NCBI GenBank assembly: GCA_028015205.1
Contig: CM051516.1
Location: 58,160,230 to 58,224,229, forward strand
DNA from: Mytilisepta virgata
Taxonomy: Eukaryota > Mollusca > Bivalvia > Mytilida > Mytilidae
DNA: 64,000 nt
Reading direction: 5' to 3'
Part shown: one piece after another, positions 713 through 57,967 of the stretch
Numbering within the stretch: position 1 is the first letter of the stretch
Layout of the letters: every line of letters starts with the position of its first letter
Notes under the pieces: generated by a model
The model's input: the letters and a program-made list of their open reading frames with translations, nothing else
The model's database searches: none
Told to the model about the DNA's origin: nothing
Made by a program: the position numbers and the translations under genes

Positions 713-2965
713 TTTTTATACGACCGCAAAATTTTTGCGGTCGTATATTGGTATGACGTTGGCGTCGTTGTCGTCGTCTGCGTCGTCGTCCGTCGTCAGC
801 GTCGTCGTCCGAAGACATTTGGTTTTCGCACTATAACTTTAGTATAAGTTAATAGAAATCTATGAAATTTAAACACAAGGTTTATGACCACAAAAGGAAG
901 GTTGGGATTGATTTTGGGAGTTTTGGTCCCAACAGTTTAAGAATCAGGGGCCAAAAAAGGGCCCAATAAGCATTTTTCTTGGTTTTCGCACAATAACTCT
1001 AGTATAAGTAAATAGAAATCTATGAAATTTTAACACAAGGTTTATGACCACAAAAGGAAGGTTGGGATTGTTTTTGGGAGTTTTGGTCCCAACAGTTTAG
1101 GAATTAGGGGCTAAAAAAGGGCCAAAATAAGCATTTTTCTTGGTTTTTGCACAATAACTTTAGTATAAGTAAATAGAAATCTATGAAATTTAAACACAAG
1201 GTTTATGACCACAAAAGGAAGGTTGGGATTGATTTTTGGAGTTTTGGTCCCAACAGTTTAGGAATTAGGGGCCAAAAGGGTCCAAAATTAAACTTTGTTT
1301 GATTTCATTGAAAATTGAACTATTGGGGTTCTTTGATATGCCGAATCTAACTGTGCATTTAGATTCTTAATTTTTGGTCCCGTTTTCAAATTGGTCTACA
1401 TTAAGGTCCAAAGGGTCCAAAATTAAACTTAGTTTGATTTTAACAAAAATTGAATTCTTTGGGTTCTTTGATATGCTGAATCTAAACATGTACTTAGTTT
1501 TTTTATTATGGGCCCAGTTTTCAAGTTGGTCCAAATCGGGGTCCAAAATTAAACTTTGTTTGATTTCATCGAAAATTGAACTATTGGGGTTCTTTGATAT
1601 GCCGAATCTAACCGTGCATTTAGATTCTTAATTTTTGGTCCCGTTTTCAAATTGGTCTACATTAAGGTCCAAAGGGTCCAAAATTAAACTTAGTTTGATT
1701 TTAACAAAAATTGAATTCTTGGGGTTCTTTGATATGCTGAATCTAAACATGTACTTAGTTTTTTTATTATGGGCCCAGTTTTCAAGTTGGTTCAAATCGG
1801 GGTCCAAAATTAAAGCCAAAAAGGGGGTAAATTATTTTTTTTTTGGGGGGGGGGGGGGGGCAATTCTCCACAGCATATTGTATTACACAAAAGCAAAAAA
1901 TTGAATATAAATTCAAATCATATGACCAATTCTAAGTTCTTTATTTCAGTTATTCTGTGTCAGAAACCTAATATGTGTCAAATATTTGAAGAAATTTTCA
2001 ATTGCACAGTATTGCGCAATAGCAAGAAATTGATATGTGTGCCCTGTTATCAAAACTTTATTATTAACAAATTCCATTGGAAATTTGCCAATATAAAATG
2101 TGCTGATGAAGCTTTTTTGTTTATCTTATCTAAACTGCTTTTAAATTATGTATATTTAAAATTTGCCATCCATGACTATGATGTCATTTTCTATTTTAAT
2201 ATGTTATGGTGTATTTAAATGGGCTGTTATGGTTGCAAAGTATAAAGAAATGGGGGGGGGGGGGGGTTTGAAAACAAAATTTGGGGGGGGGGGGGGGTAA
2301 ATGAGAAATTGGGGAGGGGGTAATTTTTTCTCATTTCATATTTCATAAATTAAAAAGAAAATTTCAAATTTTTTTTAGCAAAAAAAGGAGGGGGGGGGGG
2401 GGTTACAATAAATTTTATTGTTTTTTGTTTTTTTTTTGGGAGGGGGGGTCAATGTGCAACTTCATAGTGTGTTAAAAAAAGGGGTAAATTATTATTTTTT
2501 TTTGCTGGGGGGCAATTCTCCACAGCATATTGTATTGCACAAGAAGCAAAAAATTGAATATAAATTCAAATCATATGACCAATTTTAAGTTCTTTGATTT
2601 CAGTTATTCTGTGTCAGAAACCTATTATGTGTCAAATATTTGAAGAAATTTTCAATTACACAGTATTGCGCAATAGCAAGAAATTGATATGTGTGCCCAA
2701 TTTTAAATTTTAAATTGGTTATTTCTGATTTATATATAAAAACAAATAATACTGATATGGTTTGAATAGGTAAATTAAAAATTTTTAAGTTCTTAGACAA
2801 CATTCATTCTGTGTCAGAAACCTATGCTGTGTCAAATATTTATTCACAATCCAAATTCAGTATTGTATCAAGCTTGAATGTTGTGTTCATAATTGCCCCA
2901 ACTATTCAGGGTTCGACATCTGCGGTCGTATCTAGCTGCGCCCAGCGGAGCATTTTATTGGCAAT
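713..2965. mobile_element. GTC-rich hairpin-ended element, copy 1
   Basis: The 5' end is a near-perfect hairpin with 14-base arms at 717-730 and 734-747 (TATACGACCGCAAA). It is followed by a GTC/CGT microsatellite (about 760-810). Next come three tandem units of about 160 bp (starting 819, 979 and 1140), then two of 261 bp (starting 1285 and 1546). The 3' part has a duplicated segment of about 145 bp (about 1893-2043 and 2552-2695) separated by poly-G tracts. Near 2919-2929 the sequence TGCGGTCGTAT repeats the 5' arm and is followed by a short imperfect hairpin, taken as the 3' end. The architecture matches Helentron-associated interspersed elements (HINE/pearl-like). It has no coding capacity. 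The borders are approximate. Confidence 0.7.
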
Positions 2966-2978
2966 ATTGGTGAACTTA

Positions 2979-4441
2979 TTAGCTGACCTGGCCTAAAAGG
3001 CCATGTGAGCTTTTGCCATCATTTTGCGTCCGTCGTCCATCCACATTTCACATTTTCATCTTCTTCTCTGAAACCACCTGTCCAAAATGGAACCCAACTT
3101 GGCAAGAATGTTGATGGGATTGTTCTGTACAAAACTTATGTTTTTTTGTGCCAATTAGGTATTCAACATGGCTACCAGGGGCAGATAATTCATTCTGATT
3201 GGACTTTTCTTTAAAGTTCTTTTTGTCAGAAACTACTGAGCCAATTGAATTGAATTGTTGCATGAATGATCTTTGGATGAACCTCTACAAAAAGTTTGTA
3301 TTTGTGCCGATCAGAAATTCAAGATGGCCGCCACAGCCGGACTTAGTTTAACATTGGACCCTATGGAAAAATTTGTACAAAGGTCTGATTGTCAGAAACT
3401 ACTGAGCCAATTGAATTGATTTGTTGCATGAATGATCTTTGGATGAACCTCTACAAAAAGTTGTTTTTTGTGCTGATAGGAAATTCAAGATGGCCGCCAC
3501 AGCCAGCCTTAGTTTAACATTGGACCCTATGGGGAAATTTGTACAAAGGTCTTCTTGTCAGAAACTTCCAAGCCAATTGAAATATTTTTATGTATGAACA
3601 AGCATTGGATGAACCTTTACAAAACCTTTTGTTTTTTTTTTGTGATAGGAAATTCAAGATGGCCGCCACAGCCGGACTTAGTTTAACATTGGACCCTATG
3701 GGGAAATTTGTACAAAGGTCTAATTGTCAGAAACTACTGAGCCAATTGAATTTATTGCATGAATGATCTTTGGATGAACCTCTACAAAATTTTGTTTTTT
3801 GTGCTGATAGGAAATTCAAGATGGCCGCCACAGCCACCCTTAGTTTAACAATGGACCCAATGGGGATAATTGTACAAAGGTCTTCTTGTCAGAAACTTGC
3901 AAGCCAATTGAAATATTTTTATGTATGAACAAGCATTGGACCTTTACAAAAGTTATGTTTTTTTTTGTGATCGGAAATTCAAGATGGTCGCCACAGCCGG
4001 AATTAGTTTAACATTGGACCCTATGGGGAAATTTGTACAAAGGTCTTTTTGTCAGAAACTTCCAAGCCAAATAAAATGTTTTTATGTACGAACAAGCATT
4101 AGATGTACCTCTACAAAACTTATGTTTTTTGTGCCAATCGGAAATTCAAGATGGCCGCCACAGCCGGACTTGGTTTAAAATTGAACCCAGAAATGTTTTT
4201 GTTGCATGAAGATATTTGATAAATTTCTGCTACAAAAGTTATGTTTTTATGCTGATCAGAATCCAAGCTAGCTGCCACACTTTGTTTAACATTTTTAACA
4301 TTGGACACTGGAAGAATTCTTATCTTATCTAGAAGCACTGGACATAGTAGAACAATTCCTTACAGATTTTATCTAGAAGTGCTTTGTCATTTGTTGTCAC
4401 TTAAAATACAGGTGAGTGATTCAGGCTCCATGGAGCCTCTG
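2979..4441. mobile_element. GTC-rich hairpin-ended element, copy 2 (AGCTSACCTG family)
   Basis: It starts TTAGCTGACCTGGCC, and its first 30 bases fold on themselves around GGCCTAAAAGGCC. A GTC-type run (GCGTCCGTCGTCC) follows. Then come about six tandem units of about 166 bp, each marked by AAGATGGCCGCCACAGCC. The end is ACAGGTGAGTGATT followed by the hairpin AGGCTCCATGGAGCCT. It belongs to the same family as the larger copy at 41452-43606. It lies within about 15 bp of the end of copy 1, so the two are adjacent insertions. It has no coding capacity. Confidence 0.75.
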
Positions 4442-7376: not shown

Positions 7377-7490
7377 CAGCATACAACTCAAGCTACTCCT
7401 ATTGATACTGAGCATGAGATTACCTCCCTTGATCTTGATGCTGCTCAGGCACTGATATGTGATATTAACAAACAGCTTATTCAGCTCCAG
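7377..7490 (+). CDS. DMD: Extra in-frame exon inside spectrin repeat R20 (candidate cassette)
   Basis: 114 nt, 38 codons, phase 0/0, bounded by ttgccagcag and CAG/gtgtgt. The peptide begins QHTTQATPIDTEHE and ends DINKQLIQLQ. Skipping it joins IELMIQKEQ to SILQDMATRRTQLEDVL, which aligns without a gap to the human exon 51/52 junction, so these 38 residues have no vertebrate counterpart. The acceptor is a NAGNAG (cag cag), so the first Gln may be optional. It would insert near the start of helix B and lengthen or break the repeat. Whether it is constitutive or alternatively spliced cannot be seen from DNA. It could also be a cryptic exon, but clean phase, good splice sites and protein-like composition argue for use. 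Confidence 0.65.
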
Positions 7491-13212: not shown

Positions 13213-13402
13213 ATTGGCATACAACATAAAAGTGTTACAAACAAACAGAAACTCACTTCAACAAGTAGAGACCACTTTGGATGGTTACATCAATTGGATG
13301 ATTGGATTGGAAAACAGTTTTACAAGGCTAGTCAACGAGACAAGTAAACCAGAAGTTAGGGGAAATGACGATCTTTGTAAAGAATACTTGGAGCAGTTTA
13401 AG
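13213..13402 (+). CDS. DMD: Dystrophin exon, equivalent to human exon 55
   Basis: 190 nt, the same as human exon 55, phase 2 to 0, from atccacag to AAG/gtatgt. It encodes the rest of R21 helix C (LAYNIKVLQTNRNSLQQVE) and R22 helix A with LDGYINWMIGLENSF, ending KEYLEQFK. In the normal transcript it joins the exon at 40974 (DLQAEVDANKG), as in vertebrates (KELMKQWQ-DLQGEIEAHT). It may instead join the candidate exon at 32853. It precedes the largest intron of the window. Confidence 0.95.
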
Positions 13403-21178: not shown

Positions 21179-21739
21179 TATTTTTTATTACATTTAAGAA
21201 TATAGAAGTCAAATGAATAGTGGATGATGATAAGGCTCTTTAAATGTATTTTATCCTGTTACTATTACATCACATTTCTGCATATATTTTAGATATATTT
21301 TTTCAAGCAGGACCCAAAAAGATAAGATATGAATGTTTCAGTCGTTGAAAAAAAATTGCCTTTTACACAGTAAATACAACATTTTCTTAAAATCACAATT
21401 CTCGTCTATTTCATATTTAGATGACATTTTCTTTATGTGAAGGAAAAACATGATTATATTTTCTCTGAAATAGCTTTTTTCTCCAGGGAAATATACGTAG
21501 AAATATATTTTATAACCTAATATTCCTACAGACACCTTAACTGAAATTATGCCCCATTAATATATTTTTTACGATAATAGGTATATCGGTTAAAAGGTTT
21601 TGAGATTTTCTTAATACTGGTGTCAGTCTGTATCAGAAAAATAGTACAGATAGTATAAGAAATGTTCGAAATTTTATTTTTCAACTAAATATAACAAACT
21701 GTTGGTATGTCTGTTAACATAAATTTATCAACATAATTT

Positions 21740-23937: not shown

Positions 23938-24072
23938 ATGGATGAAAGATTTCCCTGTGAAAGTCAATATTTTATGTCACCTAAAAATACACGACGTTCG
24001 ATGTCACCAAAAAGTTCACCACGTTCTTTGTCACCAAGGATAAATAAACCTAAACGGAGGGTATACTTCCAG
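23938..24072 (+). CDS. DMD: Candidate alternative first exon A of a short dystrophin (Dp116-position)
   Basis: An ATG opens 45 codons that end CAG before gtttgt in phase 0, exactly the phase needed to join the exon at 40974 (or 32853). The peptide begins MDERFPCESQYF and carries four Ser-Pro-Lys/Arg sites (MSPKN, MSPKS, SSPRS, LSPRI). It finishes with a basic patch and RVYF (residues 41-44, in KPKRRVYFQ). The frame is open upstream to a stop at 23836 with no earlier ATG. The intron is the counterpart of vertebrate intron 55, which holds the Dp116 first exon. A transcript starting here would make a dystrophin of the last rod repeats plus WW/EF/ZZ regions. No core promoter was identified: the TATATA run at about 23909 is too close to the ATG to act as its TATA box. 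RNA evidence is lacking. Confidence 0.6.
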
Positions 24073-28162: not shown

Positions 28163-28700
28163 TTAGATATGGTACGGTGTCAGAGACAGATGAAATGGTG
28201 TAAATAATAATTGTTTTCTTGTACCAGACAAGAACGTGTTGTCTGACAATGTATTAAGGATGTGTTGGGATTGATAATTGATGACCAATCGATTAATGAT
28301 AACAGAATTCCGTAGAATTCGGACATGATATGATCTGAGGTTACAAATGATTGTATTTGATTTTTGGTTATGTTTTTTGAATATTGATAGAGAGGTTGTT
28401 ATCGTAGTTTTCCCAGTGGTATATTTTTTTTGTATCGTTCGATTTTGCATCATATTTGTGGAACATGTCTTCTGTTCTTTGAAGTTGGAAGGGAAATGGG
28501 GAGGGTTGTAATTTTTTTGTAATTCGGTAGATTTGTAAAAGGGATTTTGAAATTTTAAGGAATGAATTGTGATGTCTTCCATGGTGGTATCTTTGTAGCA
28601 TTCTTGCTGTAAATTCTGGAGATAATGGTTGATTTCTGATCTTAGTCAAATAATTTACATTAAAACTTATATTTTTTGCTTCTCTAATAAAGAACATGGA
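28163..28700 (-). other. Overlapping minus-strand ORFs, unassigned
   Basis: Two minus-strand frames overlap (139 codons at 28163-28582; 109 codons at 28368-28697), as if one open region suffered a frameshift. The residues are Asn/Thr/Lys/His rich with no motif I can place. A decayed mobile-element coding region is possible. Chance openness in AT-rich DNA is also possible. Confidence 0.2.
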
Positions 28701-40973: not shown

Positions 40974-41143
40974 GATTTACAAGCCGAAGTTGATGCAAAC
41001 AAGGGAACATATGATTCTTTGAACACTGCTGGTAATCAGCTGACCAGAACAATGGTAGCTTCCGACGCCCAGCGACTCCAAAGAAGATTAGAGGAGATGA
41101 ATCAGCGATGGATCAATCTAATGACCAAATCTATGGAAATCAG
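40974..41143 (+). CDS. DMD: Dystrophin exon, equivalent to human exon 56
   Basis: 170 nt, phase 0 to 2, from ccttccag to ATC AG/gtaaaa. It encodes R22 helices B and C: DLQAEVDANKGTYDSL, then RLQRRLEEMNQRWINLM. This matches human DLQGEIEAHTDVYHNL and LLQRRLDNMNFKWSEL. Human exon 56 is 173 nt. It is the shared acceptor for the giant intron, so it would be the second exon of any transcript starting at exon A. Confidence 0.97.
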
Positions 41144-41451: not shown

Positions 41452-43606
41452 TTTAGCTCACCTGACCCAAAGGGTCAAGTGAGCTTTTCTCATCACTTGG
41501 CGTCCGTCGTCCGTCGTCGTCCGTCGTCCGTCGTCCGTCGTCCGTTAACTTTTACAAAAATCTTCTCCTCTGAAACTACTGGGCCAAATTTAACCAAACT
41601 TGGCCACAAGCATCATTAGGGTATCTAGTTTAAAAAATGTGTCCGATGACCCCGCCAGCCAACCAACATGGCCGACATGGCTAAAAATAGAACATAGGGG
41701 TAAACTGCAGTTTTTGTCTTATATCTCAAAAACGAAAGCAATTAGAGCAAAACTGACATGGGGTAAAAATGTTCATCAGGTCAAGATCTACCTGTCATGA
41801 AATTTTCAGACGAATCGGTCAACCCTTTGTTGGGTTATTGCCCCTGAATTGTTAATTTTAAGAAAATTTTGCAGTATTAGGTTATTATCTTGAATATTAT
41901 TATAGATAAAGACCAATTGTAAACAGCAAAAAATGTTCAACAAAGTAAGATCTACAAATAAGTCAACATGACCAAAATCGTTGATTGACCCCTTATAGGA
42001 GTTTTTGCCCTTTAAAGACGGCATCCAGCGTAAACTTTCCTGTAAAGATCTTTTCCTCTCAAACCACTGGGCCAAATGAGACCAAACTTTGGTGGAATGG
42101 TCCTTGGGTGGCCCCCTTCCAAAATTATGTCTGGCATCCCCGACTTCCAACCGAGTTGGCTGCTGTTACTAAAAATAGAAAAAAAGGGGGGTGACTTTCA
42201 AAAATCTTCGTATATGAAACTACAAGTCCAGTTGGAACCAAAGTTGGCTGTAATAGTTCTTAGGAGGTTATCTTTCAGAAATATGTCCAATGACCTGGAC
42301 TGTTAACCAAGATGGCCGCCACAGCCGAACTTAGTTTAACATAGGGCCCTATGGGAAAATTCATTGAAAAATCTTCTTGTCTTAAACTACTTGACCAATT
42401 GGAACCAGACTTGGCAGCAATGGTCCTTAGATGGTCCTCTTACAGAGGTGTGTCCGATGACCCGGACTGTCAACCAAGATGGCCGCCACAGCCAAACTTA
42501 TTTTAACATAGGGCCCTATAGGAAAATTCATTGAAAAATCTTCTTGTCTGAAACCACTTAACATATTGGAGCCAGACATGGCGGCATTGGTCCTTAGGAG
42601 GTCTTTTTTCAGAAATGTGTCTGATTTCGTGGACTGTGAACCAAGATGGCCGCCACAGCAGAACTTAGTTTAACATAGGACCCTATGGGAAAATCACTCA
42701 AAAATCTTCTCGTCTGAAACCACTAAGCCAATTAGAATAAGACTTGGTAGCAATGGTCCTTAGATGGTCCTCTTTCAGAATTTTGTGTGATGATCCGGAC
42801 TGTCAACCAAGATGGCCGCCACAACCGAACTTAGTTTAACATAGGGCCCTATAGGAAAATACATTGACAAATCTTCTTGTCTGAAACCACTTAACATATT
42901 GGAGCAGGACTTGGCGGCATTAGTCCTTAGGAGGTCCTTTTTCAGAAATGTGTCTAATTTCGTGGACTGTGAACCAAGATGGCCACCACAGCAGAACTTA
43001 GTTTAACATAGGACCCTATGGGAAAATCACTCAAAAATCTTCTCATCTGAAACTACTAAGCCAATTAGAATTAGACATGGTAGCAATGGTCCTTAGATGG
43101 TCCTCTTTCAGAATTTTGTGCGATGACCTAGACTGTCAACCAAGATGGCTGCCATTTAGTTTAACATAGGGCCCTATGGAAAAATTCATTGAAAAATCTT
43201 CTTGTCTGAAACCACTTGACATATTGGAGCCAGACTTGGCAGCATTGGTCCTTAGGAGGTCCTCTTTCAGAAATTTGTCCGATCACCTGGATTGTCAACC
43301 AAGATTGCTGCCACACCGACCTTTGTTAAATATTGGACCCTATAGGAAAATTCATTTAAAAATCTTCTAGTCTGAAACCTCTTAGCCAGTTGGAACAAGA
43401 CTTAGCAGAAATGGTCCTTAGATGGTTCTCTTTTAGAAATGTATCCGTTGACCTGGACTAAACCAAGATGACTGCCACAGCTGAAATTAGTTTAACATAG
43501 AATCCTATAGAAAAACCAGCCAAATTGACTGCAACACTTAAATTTTTAGGTCTGCTCAAGGTGAAAAGTTAAATCCAGGTGAGCGATACAGGCTCTTGAG
43601 AGCCTC
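41452..43606. mobile_element. GTC-rich hairpin-ended element, copy 4 (large AGCTCACCTG copy)
   Basis: It starts TTTAGCTCACCTGACCC, and its first 35 bases fold (AGCTCAC..GTGAGCT around CCCAAAGGG). Then come GTCCGTCGTC repeats (41501-41545), a unique part, and six or seven tandem units of about 167 bp marked CCAAGATGGCCGCCACAGCC. The 3' end is CAGGTGAGCGATAC, the inverse of the 5' AGCTCACCTG, followed by the perfect hairpin AGGCTCTTGAGAGCCT and then CTAG. A terminal hairpin followed by CTAG is typical of Helitron-type 3' ends. No transposase is encoded. Confidence 0.8.
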
Positions 43607-43732: not shown

Positions 43733-44012
43733 TATACCCACCGCAAACAAAGTTTGGGGGGTATATAGGAATCACCTTGTCCGTCCGTCTGTCCGTCTGT
43801 CTGTCTGTCTGTCCATCTGTCCATATATTTGTAACCGCAACTCCTCCTAGACCGCTCAATGGATTTCAACGAAACTTTACAGAAAGGAAGTACATCATCC
43901 AAAGATGCGCATGAAGAAAAATCTTTGCTTTCCGATATCACACAAGGGAGATAATTTGACTTCAAAGCGGGGTGTATCCTTTGTGAGCTTTGCTCACAGT
44001 ACATCTAGATTT
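43733..44012. mobile_element. GTC-rich hairpin-ended element, copy 5 (short TATACCC family)
   Basis: 5' TTTATACCCACCGCAAAC folds back on AGTTTGGGGGGTATA. It is followed by GTCCGTCCGTCTGTC repeats. The 3' part has GCGGGGTGTATCC, a near inverse of the 5' terminus, then the hairpin GTGAGCTTTGCTCAC and, after seven bases, CTAG. It is a complete 280-bp element without internal tandem units. Non-coding. Confidence 0.75.
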
Positions 44013-44509
44013 CTCTGTTTATACTTCAAAATTATGTGGTTACCAGTTGGTCAATTCAAATACTTTAAAATCCATCTTTGAAAGTAAAGTTTGAATTAAA
44101 CTAGTAATGTCAAATAAATTTAGAAATTTTTGCTTGTATGATATTTCTCACATACATGTAATATGTACACAATTAAAACAGGATCAAACAAATATCCTGT
44201 CTATGCATTAATTAAGAGGTCATTATCTAGGTGTCACCTCCCTGCTTAATTATCGCTACATTTGTGATTAGATAAAACAGCCATTTTTGAGAACATTGAA
44301 CTGCAGTTAATTTCTTTTCTGCTACAATAGGAAATAAACGTTTGGATTCAGTATGGAGTTCAGCTACTTTTAATCAGTTTTAATGAAAAATATTACTTAG
44401 ATTCATCATGAAATAAGGAATAGATTTTTCAATTATATCATAGTGCCACAAAGTGAATTAATAATGACATAATTTTGTAATATAAGTGACAATACTATAT
44501 TAAACTAAA

Positions 44510-44805
44510 ATGAGATATATTGCTCTAATTGGACATAAGTCTGGGACAGATTGTAGACTTGGAAGATTTGACTGTGACTGCTCTAAGGGAAAAAAATGTT
44601 GCAGTGAAAGAAATTACACAAAGGAAAGTTACAATTTATATGGTGAACCAGATTTTATTAACATATATAGCCATCAGCGAACACATTCAGAGCCGGAATT
44701 ATATGTGGCTGTCATTGGCGAGTATAAAAACTTGAGCAAAAGTACTGAACATTTAAATAGATCACAAAGTTTACCTCCAAAGAAAAAGAAGAAAAGAGTT
44801 CATTG
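44510..44805 (+). CDS. DMD: Candidate alternative first exon B of a short dystrophin
   Basis: An ATG (in-frame stop nine bases upstream) opens 98 codons plus two bases, to a donor at CATTG/gtagga. This leaves phase 2, exactly what the next exon (46115) needs; the split codon becomes Trp and the protein continues GRLESNAEQW. The N-terminus reads MRYIALIGHKSGTD, then a Cys-rich patch (CDCSKGKKCC), then YNLYGEPDF. Two RxxSxP sites follow (RTHSEP 57-62, RSQSLP 84-89), then PPKKKKKRVHW (89-99). The lysine run resembles a nuclear-localisation signal, and RVHW fits the PP1-docking RVxF class. If the intron is retained the frame stops at once (TGG TAG), giving a 99-residue peptide. The product would contain R23-R24, WW, EF and ZZ regions. 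No core promoter is recognised. Confidence 0.65.
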
Positions 44806-45716
44806 GTAGGAATAAAATGGGAAGTTGTCATGACAACAAACACACATAAACATGTACACAACCATTTTACAAAAATGTTTGGTTAGATTTAAGCTTGAAA
44901 CCTGATCTAAAAAAGAGTTACATGTAAGACTTTGCTTTGAATTTTGGTATCATGAATTGGCAGTATAAATGTATTAAGACTTTGAAATTTTAAATTAAAA
45001 TGTCCTTTATACAAAAAATAGCCAAACACAAAATTTTAAAATAATGCATTAATGGCTTTTTTCCCAGCATACATTGTTATTGGATTAAGGATATCATTTT
45101 GTTCCAGTTGGCCTTCAAATAGAATATTTCGTACCAAGATCATATTTACACCATCAGGCTTAGATATCCTAAGTCTATTATTTTGACCAAGGGATATTTG
45201 TAAAAACAATGACCACAGTATTGATTTATTGAATAAAGTGTATGAAGATATTCAACTATTAAATCATTTGTAAGGGTATCAGGCTAGGTAATTTATTTAT
45301 TTGCTTAAAGCAATACTGTTAATAGTTTTTTCTAGACTTTTACAAATTGATCACAAGATAAAGTTATTTCCTGTAAAATCCCTTCTGTTCTGTAAATATC
45401 TATTGTCGGAGGAAATATGTCACGTTTGTATAATAAATTTATATAATGAATTTTTTTTTTCTTAAGACATATTACTTTGTTTCTTTTTATAGAATATATT
45501 GTAAAGCTTGGTATACTATTTCTATATGGCAACAGAAAAACAGTTTATGTCTTCATTTTGTTATGAGCAAATATATCTCAAGTAAAAATTGTTTGAAAGA
45601 ATTTCCTTATTTATCTTGTGATTATTTTCCTTACTTAAAATTTCTTTTTGCTATAATGTTTTTAATGAGTTGTCTTTCTTTATAGATGTCTGTGGTGACA
45701 GTTTCACATAAGATTA

Positions 45717-45983
45717 TTTAAGGGGGTACAGAACACCTAAGGGAATTAACTCTTTAAAAATCAGCTGAAAGTTTTAATCACATACTATTAGTAAAGAGAA
45801 ATCAAGCTTCTCAATGATCAAAATTAGTGTCAAACTGCTATATATCCAATGAAATTATTCCCGTAAATTGTATGGTTCAAATTTATTGAATTTTTCATAT
45901 TTCTGTCAACAGGTCAAAGTAAATATTTCATCAAAATTTTCTGAAAATCTATTTTAGTCAAAATGTTGGGTACCCCCTTAAAT
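45717..45983. mobile_element. MITE with TTTAAGGGGGTAC termini
   Basis: The termini TTTAAGGGGGTAC and GTACCCCCTTAAA are exact inverse complements (13 bp) around 240 bp of non-coding AT-rich sequence. A short DNA-transposon derivative. Confidence 0.75.
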
Positions 45984-46114
45984 TACAGCAATAAATAAAT
46001 CCTGTACATTTTTAATTGACAACAATCTTGTAAATATTTCTCTGTTTCTCAGAGGTTCACAGCGTATTGTATATGTTTATTTATAATTATATGCATAATT
46101 TATATGTATTTTAG

Positions 46115-46271
46115 GGGTCGTCTTGAAAGCAATGCTGAACAGTGGCTCCATCTAGTTAATACTCTACAAGAACTTATCAGCTGGTTAATGACAAAACAAC
46201 AAGAACTCCATAAACAGCGACCAATAGGTGGCGACTCTGCTACTTTACAAAAGCAAAATGAAGAGAACAAG
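46115..46271 (+). CDS. DMD: Dystrophin exon, equivalent to human exon 57
   Basis: 157 nt, equal to human exon 57, phase 2 to 0, from gtattttag to AAG/gtacaa. It encodes R23 helix A (AEQWLHLVNTLQELISWLM) and the loop RPIGGDSATLQKQNEENK, which matches human APIGGDFPAVQKQNDVHR closely. It accepts splicing both from the exon at 40974 (Arg at the junction) and, if used, from exon B (Trp at the junction). Confidence 0.97.
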
Positions 46272-46789: not shown

Positions 46790-47017
46790 GACAGCAATTG
46801 AACAGAGTTTAGAGGCAGGTTGTTTTCACCTCTGATAAGGTGGTGACGTAGTACCAGTATTTAACAGTAACAATCGTATATGGGATAGGGTAGCAATTAA
46901 TCAGAGTTTAAAGGCTTGTTGTTTCTACATCAGAGAAGTGAAGATTCTATACTTAGTAACAGTAGCAGTGATCATGAAAGATTAAGAGGGTGTGGCAGCC
47001 ATTGAGTTAAGAGGCAG
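46790..47017 (+). pseudogene. Tandem degenerate copies of the preceding exon
   Basis: Two copies of most of exon 46644-46773 lie in its downstream intron, in the same orientation. Copy 1 (about 46793-46885) reads CAATTGAACAGAGTTTAGAG. Copy 2 (about 46892-46985) reads CAATTAATCAGAGTTTAAAG and later AGTAGCAGTGATCATG. A third trace, CATTGAGTTAAGAGGCAG, ends at 47017. Spacing is 117 then 99 bp. Copy 1 has a stop (CTCTGATAA) in the exon frame, and both have lost the gtaggt donor. They look like unequal duplications that never became or no longer are exons. Confidence 0.8.
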
Positions 47018-47185
47018 TTTTTAAAAAAAAAAATTGAGGTAAATATGCTTCACTGCCATCTTAGGTTGTACAAGATTTTGTTTAATAGAATGTGATGTCT
47101 CCAAAATTTATGATTCTAATATTCAAAATATACATACATATTGAATATTGTATTTGTAGTGGATTTATGTCCCTTCGGTTATCTG

Positions 47186-48190: not shown

Positions 48191-48725
48191 CTGCACCAAA
48201 AACTGTATCTTGCCTTAGTTCAGAACTAATTTTTACTAGACCAAATGGAAAAATACCACTGAAATAATAGAATTTATAAGAAGAAAAAAAAGTTTTACAA
48301 GATTGGCTTAGGGCTAGTGGATAAAGACTGAGAAACTTCATGAAATCAAGGTCTTAAAGAACAGAAATTAAGTGAAGTGACTGAAAAATGTAGTTGCAGT
48401 TATTAGATATATATATATATATATACGTCTACAGTAATAACCATATATATACGTCTACAGTAATAACCAATTTTCAAACTTACTAGATGTTGGTCCAATA
48501 ATAAATTAACGATACAGTTCAAACTAAAAAATAAATAAATGTCTAAAAAGTTGCAAAAGAACATCAAAATAAAACAAATAAACTTTTGAATTATAACAAT
48601 TATTCAAAATTAGCAAAATCTTCAGATCACTGAGATCCTTCATCAGTGCTGTCGCGTTATTATATAATAAGATTTACTGACACCATTGTATCCCGAGCCA
48701 TTAGTGATTATCTTCTGGTGAACAG

Positions 48726-49040
48726 TTGCTGGTTGTTGAGGACCAAATAACAATCCCTGTGCAGTGCTCAGTCTTAAGGGATATTGTTTCCCGTATGCTT
48801 ATACCAAGGCCTCCAGCCTATGGTGTGTACACTTCACAGTTGATTCGTTACTTCCGTTCATGTGATGTATACGATGACTTTCTCGGCAGAGTGAGATTGC
48901 TGTCACATAAACTTCTAAGACAAGGTTACGTTCAGTCTATGTTAATTTCATCAGTCCAAAACTTTTACACTCATCATCACCAATTTATTGGCCAATACAA
49001 AGTTTGTATCTCACATATGAGACTAGATATCTTTAGTTAG
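48726..49040 (+). pseudogene. Retroelement reverse-transcriptase C-terminal fragment
   Basis: A 104-codon frame whose second part reads PPAYGVYTSQLIRYFRSC, then FLGRVRLLSHKLLRQGYVQS and FIGQYKV. This is the conserved tail seen after the reverse-transcriptase palm in a large class of invertebrate retroelements (often with the motif YGVYISQLIRYARAC). The catalytic palm is absent and only this 3' piece remains, in the same direction as the host gene. Downstream (49050-49550) a segment with GGAGCACCTGATGT and TTCACATTGCTAGT occurs twice and may be its 3' untranslated region. I could not decide between non-LTR and Penelope-like. Confidence 0.75.
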
Positions 49041-56192: not shown

Positions 56193-56433
56193 TCTACTGT
56201 ATGGCAGTGAGACCCTTGCTTACTGTGTGTCTCTACTGTCTGGCAGTGAGATCCATGCTTACTGTGTGTCTCTACTGTCTGGCAGTGAGATCCATGCTTA
56301 CTGTGTGTCTCTACTGTCTGGCTGTGAGACCCGTGCTTACTGTGTGTCTCTACTGTCTGGCAGTGAGATCCATGCTTACTGTGTGTCTCTACTGTCTGGC
56401 TGTGAGACCCGTGCGTACTGTGTGTACCTCGGC
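56193..56433. repeat. 39-bp minisatellite
   Basis: About six copies of CTCTACTGTCTGGCAGTGAG plus ATCCATGCTTACTGTGTGT. Since 39 is a multiple of three, two + frames stay open (13-residue period, for example SGSEIHAYCVSLL), producing spurious ORFs of about 100 codons. Confidence 0.9.
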
Positions 56434-57967
56434 AGCTGATTTCTTAATGAAAAGCTCAGAACTGTACTACAATTCTGTACATTTCAAACAAGAATTAGAT
56501 ATGTCCTAAAAGTCAAAATGGTTTGAACTTTTGGAAAGAAAACTCATCTATAGTTATGTTCAATGTTTATTTTTCTGAACCATATAAAATTTGTACTACA
56601 TATAAAGGGATATCAATGTAAACAGGTGTATTTGATATTACATCTGCCTTTTTATCTTATCTGAATTTGACATTGACACCACAGTAAGTAAAGCTGCAAG
56701 GTCACAAATGGTCATCTTCAAAGATTTTATATCAAAGTTGTATTCAGTTATATTGAATATTTAGAATCCAATAGTGTTATACTTTATATTAGTTAAATCA
56801 TTATACATTATACATGTAAGCATCTATCAACCAGAAATGCTAAAGACTGAAAATGAAGAACTTAAACATTCCAGAAAGAGATAGAAATAATCTACCAATT
56901 GGTAGCATAAAAATGATTAAAGTAGGCCTTGAAGTTGTGAAAATTATTGCATAAAAAATGGAAATTAAATTGTCAGTGAATTTTAAATATTAAGATATTT
57001 TTTTATAAATCAGAAATAAGAGAAGCCTCAATGACCAAAAAAATATTTTCATTTAAAAAGTCCCCCCCCCCAAATATGAAATGGTAATTTAATGTTTGTA
57101 AAAAATTAGGGCAGTGAATGTATAAGTCACTGTTTTTGGTATTTTTATATGATTATATCATATCATCCTTAATTAGGCATGAAATTGACAAATCATGATC
57201 GTGATTTGATTAGAAGATTTAAACTTTGATCAGATTTGTGATATGAACTGATCTCCCATGCTTATATTTCACATTCTAGAGTTATCAGATGATATTATCT
57301 TATTTAAATAATTTTGGTTATTGTTAGATATAAAAATTAAATTTAGTCTTATAACATTTTAGCCTTCAGCTGTAGTCATTGTTTGTAGTTGTAAATTAAA
57401 ACCTTGAGAAATGATACAAAAACATCAATTATAGATAGAAATACACTGCGACATTGAAAAGTACATCAGTTTTATATCCTAAGGTGAAAAAAAATAAATG
57501 TTACAATAAATTTATATCAGATAAAGTAAATGACCTGCCAAAACTTTTGTCATGTAATCCAATACTTAATATAACTGAATTTGATAACAAAATTTGACCT
57601 TAAATGTTTCTCTGTGTAGTATTTTGAATCAAATTTTTGTGAGAGAGGTTTGACAAATATTTAACTATGGGTAGAAAAAGTGATCAGATTTTACCATTGC
57701 ATGCTAAAAGACAGCTGTTTCCAGTGGAGTTAGGTAAATTGTGTGGTTAGATTATACATTACTGCAAAAAAATCTTTACAGTGGAATTTGGGTCACCCAT
57801 GGGACTGTCGAAAATATTTAAATTCTAAATACAAAAAACCTTTGGTGTAAGGATAGACTAGTCTGAGTTTACCATTGTGTTAAGTCAATTTTAGTTCAAG
57901 CAAACAAGGTTCCATTGTAGTAAAAAGATATAATATACTATAGGCATTATATTTTTATTTTTTATAG

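Follow-up and report, generated by a model that had tools for sequence, protein, structure and literature searches.

Short products arise from internal promoters of dystrophin genes, and for their unique heads little function has been assigned. In vertebrates, as the promoters are placed in PMC1790709, Dp260 starts just before exon 30, Dp140 between exons 44 and 45, Dp116 between exons 55 and 56, and Dp71 between exons 62 and 63; the same source treats the intron-55 promoter as ancient and assigns sea urchin SuDp98 and Drosophila Dp205, two invertebrate isoforms from internal promoters, to the intron-55 ortholog. We describe a candidate alternative first exon, B, in the intron 56 equivalent of a mytilid dystrophin gene, together with a companion candidate, A, in the intron 55 equivalent (Table 1). 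Dp116, G-utrophin (Up113) and DRP2-type proteins begin, as a product starting at B would, with a first exon of their own that lies in the 3' third of the gene; they lack the actin-binding domain and retain R23-R24 to the C-terminus. The first exon of Dp116 lies in intron 55 and joins exon 56, whereas B lies in intron 56, unlike the exons of SuDp98 and Dp205 as well, and would join exon 57; its head would have 99 residues, against 10-24 in Dp116/Dp118 and 48 in Up113. Tested against the features of the Dp116 class, the sequence of B can splice in frame to a downstream dystrophin exon but misses the intron-55 position of the vertebrate Dp116 first exon, which A occupies. Cysteines occur in vertebrate short-form N-termini as in B, and human exon S1 has CC in its upstream part (PMC1790709, PMC5664101); a homology of B to human Dp116 exon S1 through CCSxR was rejected, as 364 of 4,000 shuffles scored equally well and the similarity is not significant. 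Titles and abstract openings of the listed papers yielded nothing on mussel dystrophin isoforms, nor on a dystrophin first exon that docks PP1 or 14-3-3.

The window analysed is the whole stretch of 64,000 nucleotides from Mytilisepta virgata (GCA_028015205.1, contig CM051516.1, positions 58,160,230 to 58,224,229). Its + strand carries a dystrophin gene, the exons of which were located with a human dystrophin query; downstream exons were placed on GT/AG sites with their phases and cross-checked against dystrophin-like isoform X1 of Mytilus trossulus (P0004, 3,784 residues). The trimmed, concatenated window exons are 88.2% identical to this protein (1,018 aligned positions) and, by sequence, the gene is a mytilid-like dystrophin. 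The intron 55 equivalent extends from the exon ending at 13402 to the exon 56 equivalent, which opens in phase 0 with DLQAEVD. B is placed in the human intron 56 equivalent because it is flanked by the equivalents of exons 56 and 57. The initial annotation had given B this position, away from any known vertebrate promoter; the matches of the flanking exons to human exons 56 and 57 support the position, and the promoters listed in PMC1790709 agree with the second statement. Given an intron-55 promoter of such age, finding an internal start in this region would be less of a surprise than that annotation implied.

Table 1. Features of the B and A candidates and flanking exons (positions within the window; a slash marks the exon-intron border)
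Feature	Position	Strand	Description
Candidate first exon A	23938..24072	+	45 codons, phase 0; donor CAG/GTTTGT; ends KPKRRVYFQ
Dystrophin exon 56 equivalent	40974..41143	+	Phase-2 donor; match to human exon 56
Possible 5' untranslated part of B exon	44444..44509	+	Proposed from acceptor score
Candidate first coding exon B	44510..44805	+	98 codons + 2 nt, phase 2; ATG start
RTHSEP codons	44678..44695	+	Residues 57-62; 14-3-3 mode-1-like (near consensus)
RSQSLP codons	44759..44776	+	Residues 84-89; exact fit to 14-3-3 consensus RSXpSXP
KKKKKRVHW codons	44780..44806	+	Basic run and RVxF-type KRVHW (residues 95-99)
5' splice site of B, GTAGGA	44806..44811	+	TTG/GTAGGA; log-odds 5.48
Dystrophin exon 57 equivalent	46115..46271	+	157 nt; start of spectrin repeat R23

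Several other features of the gene were recorded. Between two dystrophin exons, 7377-7490 is a 114-nt frame (QHTTQATPIDTEHEITSLDLDAAQALICDINKQLIQLQ) with good-looking splice sites (tttgccag and gtgtgt), a possible cassette exon by its sequence; its peptide is absent from Mytilus trossulus X1 and gave one chance-level match (E 0.42) among eight fetched proteins. At 46887-47035, 3' of exon 58, sequence encoded by that exon is weakly matched twice (E 0.001 each), perhaps through a local duplication. The intron after exon 58 holds an ORF at 48708-49040 (YGVYTSQLIRYFRSCDVY), which we take to resemble a reverse transcriptase fragment. Roughly eight 167-bp tandem repeats (with a 333-bp period too) occupy 42200-43515, the array ending at ~43500-43515, about 1 kb 5' of B. 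Outside the window, one database dystrophin (P0009, 1,837 residues) has a strongly hydrophobic, transmembrane-like N-terminus fused to the rod domain; it may be a short isoform anchored in the membrane, or else an artefact of assembly.

B is contained in a stop-to-stop frame at 44504-44809, with an in-frame TAA at 44501-44503, two codons 5' of its ATG, and an A at -3 of that ATG, a fair start context as read directly. Joining B to exon 57 gives the junction codon TG+G (Trp) at the R22/R23 boundary, and the reading frame then continues open across 12 further exons to 63411; the acceptor at 46115 serves both B and exon 56. The phase-2 donor, Trp junction and upstream stop reported for B in the initial annotation were thus recovered, and the Cys-rich patch, Ser motifs and lysine run that it noted are all present in the peptide. 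G+C content is 34.3% in B and 27% in the flanks. B is no repeat copy within the window; the region 44000-46114 has a single low-grade match to the rest of the window, of 38 positions, at ~45429-45463, outside B. The donor is weakish: 13 of 15 gene donors score higher and two lower (leave-one-out range 3.36 to 11.0; 15 of 19 entered positions, with 4803, 7077, 10662 and 12687 dropped as GT is absent at the coordinate), and 166 of the 3,630 + strand GT sites equal or exceed its score. The best 3' splice site within 43900-44800 falls just before 44444 (score 6.43, reached by 3.9% of other AGs) and would leave 66 untranslated bases ahead of the ATG.

ORF length and general coding statistics do not distinguish B from intron sequence. 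Three ATG-started ORFs of at least 98 codons occur on the + strand of the window: B (99 codons to its stop), 1922-2218 (98 codons) and 56201-56509 (102 codons), the last a tandem repeat. The description of B as the longest non-repeat intronic ORF therefore holds for ATG-started frames of the + strand only, a - strand frame at 28163-28582 being longer (139 codons). In 3 Mb of single strand simulated with an order-3 Markov model of the introns, ATG-ORFs of this size (98 codons or more) numbered 52, or roughly one in every 57 kb; the length of B is thus at chance level, carries no evidential weight alone, and was rejected as evidence. A phase-2 donor at least as strong as that of B, at or beyond codon 98, was found in one of these 52 simulated ORFs. 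On a codon log-odds scale derived from 1,025 codons of the dystrophin gene, B scores -0.068 per codon, a value matched or beaten by 12 of 149 intronic ORFs and by 6.2% of 14,836 intron windows; because of those 12 ORFs, and because the +1 frame of B scores higher (0.062) than its own frame, the codon test gives coding no support. The amino-acid composition score of B is reached by 24 of 155 intronic ORFs, and with both scores unremarkable, general coding statistics are neutral on B. A bacterial-type promoter scan (3 found; shuffle mean 4.4) was set aside as not applicable, since it models bacterial promoters.

B carries two motifs of the 14-3-3 mode-1 type, RTHSEP and RSQSLP, and its end, KKKKKRVHW, holds an RVxF-type pattern. 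The PP1-docking pattern was coded as [KR][KR][VI]x[FW], and the PKKKKKRV run we take to be similar to a nuclear signal. The 14-3-3 consensus RSXpSXP and the RVxF name and examples follow PMC4482762, where in PPP1R3D (R6) the 14-3-3 motif RARSLP precedes the RVxF motif RVRF on the N-terminal side and mutation was used to test both. PPP1R3D thus shows that a PP1 targeting subunit can work with a 14-3-3 site placed ahead of an RVxF site; B has the same order, RSQSLP then KRVHW, a likeness at the motif level only. The final base of the Trp codon in KRVHW is the first G of the intron, and exon 57 restores the same base on splicing. Shuffling B 200,000 times never produced two R[ST]x[ST]xP motifs and gave at least one in 0.49% of shuffles, while the RVxF-type pattern occurred anywhere in 0.86% and in the last five residues at a frequency of 7.5e-5; the six-frame translation excluding A and B (118,631 residues) contains two R[ST]x[ST]xP and 10 RVxF-type matches. 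Both motif classes, which are absent from the initial annotation, were picked post hoc, after the sequence of B had been viewed, and by our own estimate the paired 14-3-3-type sites would still be unlikely by chance after correction for a few hundred motif classes. As predicted motifs, they give B the sequence characteristics of 14-3-3 clients (RSXpSXP) and of PP1-interacting proteins (RVxF). In PMC8783446, PP1-beta ranks first among the non-sarcoglycan proteins precipitated together with gamma-sarcoglycan in mouse muscle, which makes PP1 near the dystrophin complex plausible; secondary screens reported there left binding of PP1-beta to the sarcoglycan complex unsupported.

Candidate A is the last part of an intron-55 ORF and encodes MDERFPCESQYFMSPKNTRRSMSPKSSPRSLSPRINKPKRRVYFQ, with RSxSP repeats and RRVYF next to a donor that scores 6.64 and agrees in phase with the start of exon 56. 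The donor-proximal ends of A and B align with a Smith-Waterman score of 37, equalled in 30 of 5,000 shuffles. Across six frames there are 12 RVxF-type matches, seven with a GT in the scanned stretch and three with a donor of at least 5.48, namely A, B and 21349-21363 (KKIAF, donor 5.78); besides A and B this leaves 10, five and one, the one scoring above the donor of B. The KKIAF match directly follows a stop codon, with no ORF before it, and because it has the same pairing of motif and donor, the case for a shared design of A and B is weakened; an RVxF motif beside a donor was accordingly discarded as proof of common design. That A and B are consecutive internal first exons of mytilid dystrophin, both ending in a basic RVx[FW] after RSxS sites and giving phospho-switchable, PP1-targeting short dystrophins of the dystroglycan complex, is in our view doubtful.

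Three protein searches were run against 5.77 billion sequences, using up to 100 sampled 5-residue words and 90% identity clusters that hide members; they covered candidate lengths of ~55-173 residues (B alone), 397-1262 (B with the downstream exons) and 1251-3981 (the end of A with B and exon 57). B alone returned no candidate sharing three words (~55-173 residues). For B with the downstream exons (residues 1-190 scored), the one match in 601 candidates was a protein of Bulinus truncatus in which exons 56 and 57 are both represented. The end of A with B and exon 57 gave seven matches in 303 candidates, five of them bivalve dystrophins (Mytilus trossulus, Argopecten irradians, Saccostrea echinata, Magallana gigas and Crassostrea virginica) and one from a tick. 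BlastP of B against the eight matched proteins gave chance-level matches only (best E 0.89 among the four listed). The missing homologue is weak evidence because of the 90% clustering, the sampled words and the gap at 174-396 residues in the lengths covered. Matches of B to Pfam GON (E 0.036; 14.4 bits against a cut-off of 22.6) and to a PRDM9 zinc-finger chain (E 8.9e-4; residues 47-67, no single stretch passing) were dismissed as chance or short-motif matches, and none of 39 viral pattern matches was confirmed.

The reading that we favour, as the single most likely one at a probability of roughly 50%, is that B does serve a short dystrophin as an alternative first exon; the phase-matched donor and motif content speak for it, companion A helps less, and ORF length not at all. 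A less likely but possible explanation is that chance alone accounts for the ORF of B in AT-rich intron DNA, its donor and motifs being coincidental and found by looking: about one such ORF is expected per 57 kb of strand and 1922-2218 is another on the + strand, the codon and composition scores are unremarkable, no homologue was found in the lengths covered, the donor is weak, and 21349-21363 pairs a third RVxF-type match with a comparable donor where there is no ORF. What speaks against coincidence is the combination of the matching donor (1 of 52), two 14-3-3-type motifs and an RVxF-type end, by our own estimate jointly improbable even after a rough correction for motif classes. Decay of an exon used in an ancestor only would fit the intact motifs, weak donor and lack of a homologue found, and we consider it extremely unlikely; the frame has no stop, whereas an idle frame of such length would be expected to break soon in this base composition.

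The immediate surroundings of B also admit readings other than a first exon. Past the donor come one more codon (TGG), TAG at 44807-44809 and, one base further, AATAAA from 44811, so that a stand-alone 99-codon ORF is formally possible and B might belong to an alternative last exon (ending RVHW), through intronic polyadenylation, or to a nested small gene. Intronic polyadenylation is reported for human DMD (PMC7278912), and the 44444 acceptor joined to exon 56 would meet an early stop; AATAAA, however, occurs four times in 44401-46115, making one nearby unremarkable, no candidate protein of ~55-173 residues emerged from the database search, and two human queries brought up no convincing CBM21/PPP1R3-like continuation in the window (tblastn and a two-sequence HMM; best E 0.054, on an unrelated repeat, and 0.83), on which ground a nested PPP1R3-like gene was rejected. 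Taken together, we judge these possibilities improbable. An in-frame cassette between exons 56 and 57 could be formed, for example, by 44671-44805, where an AG before 44671 gives a symmetrical exon of 135 nt (phase 2-2) with all motifs; since exon 56 ends in phase 2 too, long dystrophins would thereby gain 45 residues, both 14-3-3 motifs among them, at the junction of R22 with R23. The acceptor before 44671 scores -0.41, however, and the best in-frame acceptor within B 0.64, a value exceeded by 20 of 21 gene acceptors (leave-one-out range 0.35 to 12.64); 54 open codons upstream would be left unexplained, and the Mytilus trossulus X1 protein runs from exon 56 straight into exon 57. The cassette is very unlikely because no in-frame acceptor within B is strong.

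Under the first-exon reading, an internal promoter in intron 56 would drive a transcript with B as the coding part of its first exon, which perhaps begins at ~44444 with an untranslated stretch. Spliced to exon 57, B would give a short dystrophin of ~1,010 residues (99 new, then R23 to the C-terminus, the length of which is estimated from the Mytilus trossulus protein); the actin-binding domain and R1-R22 would be missing from it. The proposal in the initial annotation of a short isoform starting at R23 retains the support of phase, domain boundary, start context, the poor cassette reading and motif content, and loses its argument from ORF length, which is at chance level. The head would probably be unstructured and act through short motifs: once the Ser residues of its two RxxSxP sites were phosphorylated, a 14-3-3 dimer could bind there and mask the adjacent basic/RVxW stretch, and in the unphosphorylated head KRVHW might dock PP1, or the basic run might serve as a nuclear signal. 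In this way the B isoform may bring a regulated phosphatase to the dystroglycan-syntrophin complex; we put forward 14-3-3-gated PP1 docking by a short dystrophin as a hypothesis drawn from these motifs. If true, a mollusc isoform that starts exactly at R23 would mean that promoter position shifts between introns in evolution, and a motif-rich head of 99 residues would give a testable idea, 14-3-3 and PP1 recruitment, for the heads of short dystrophins.
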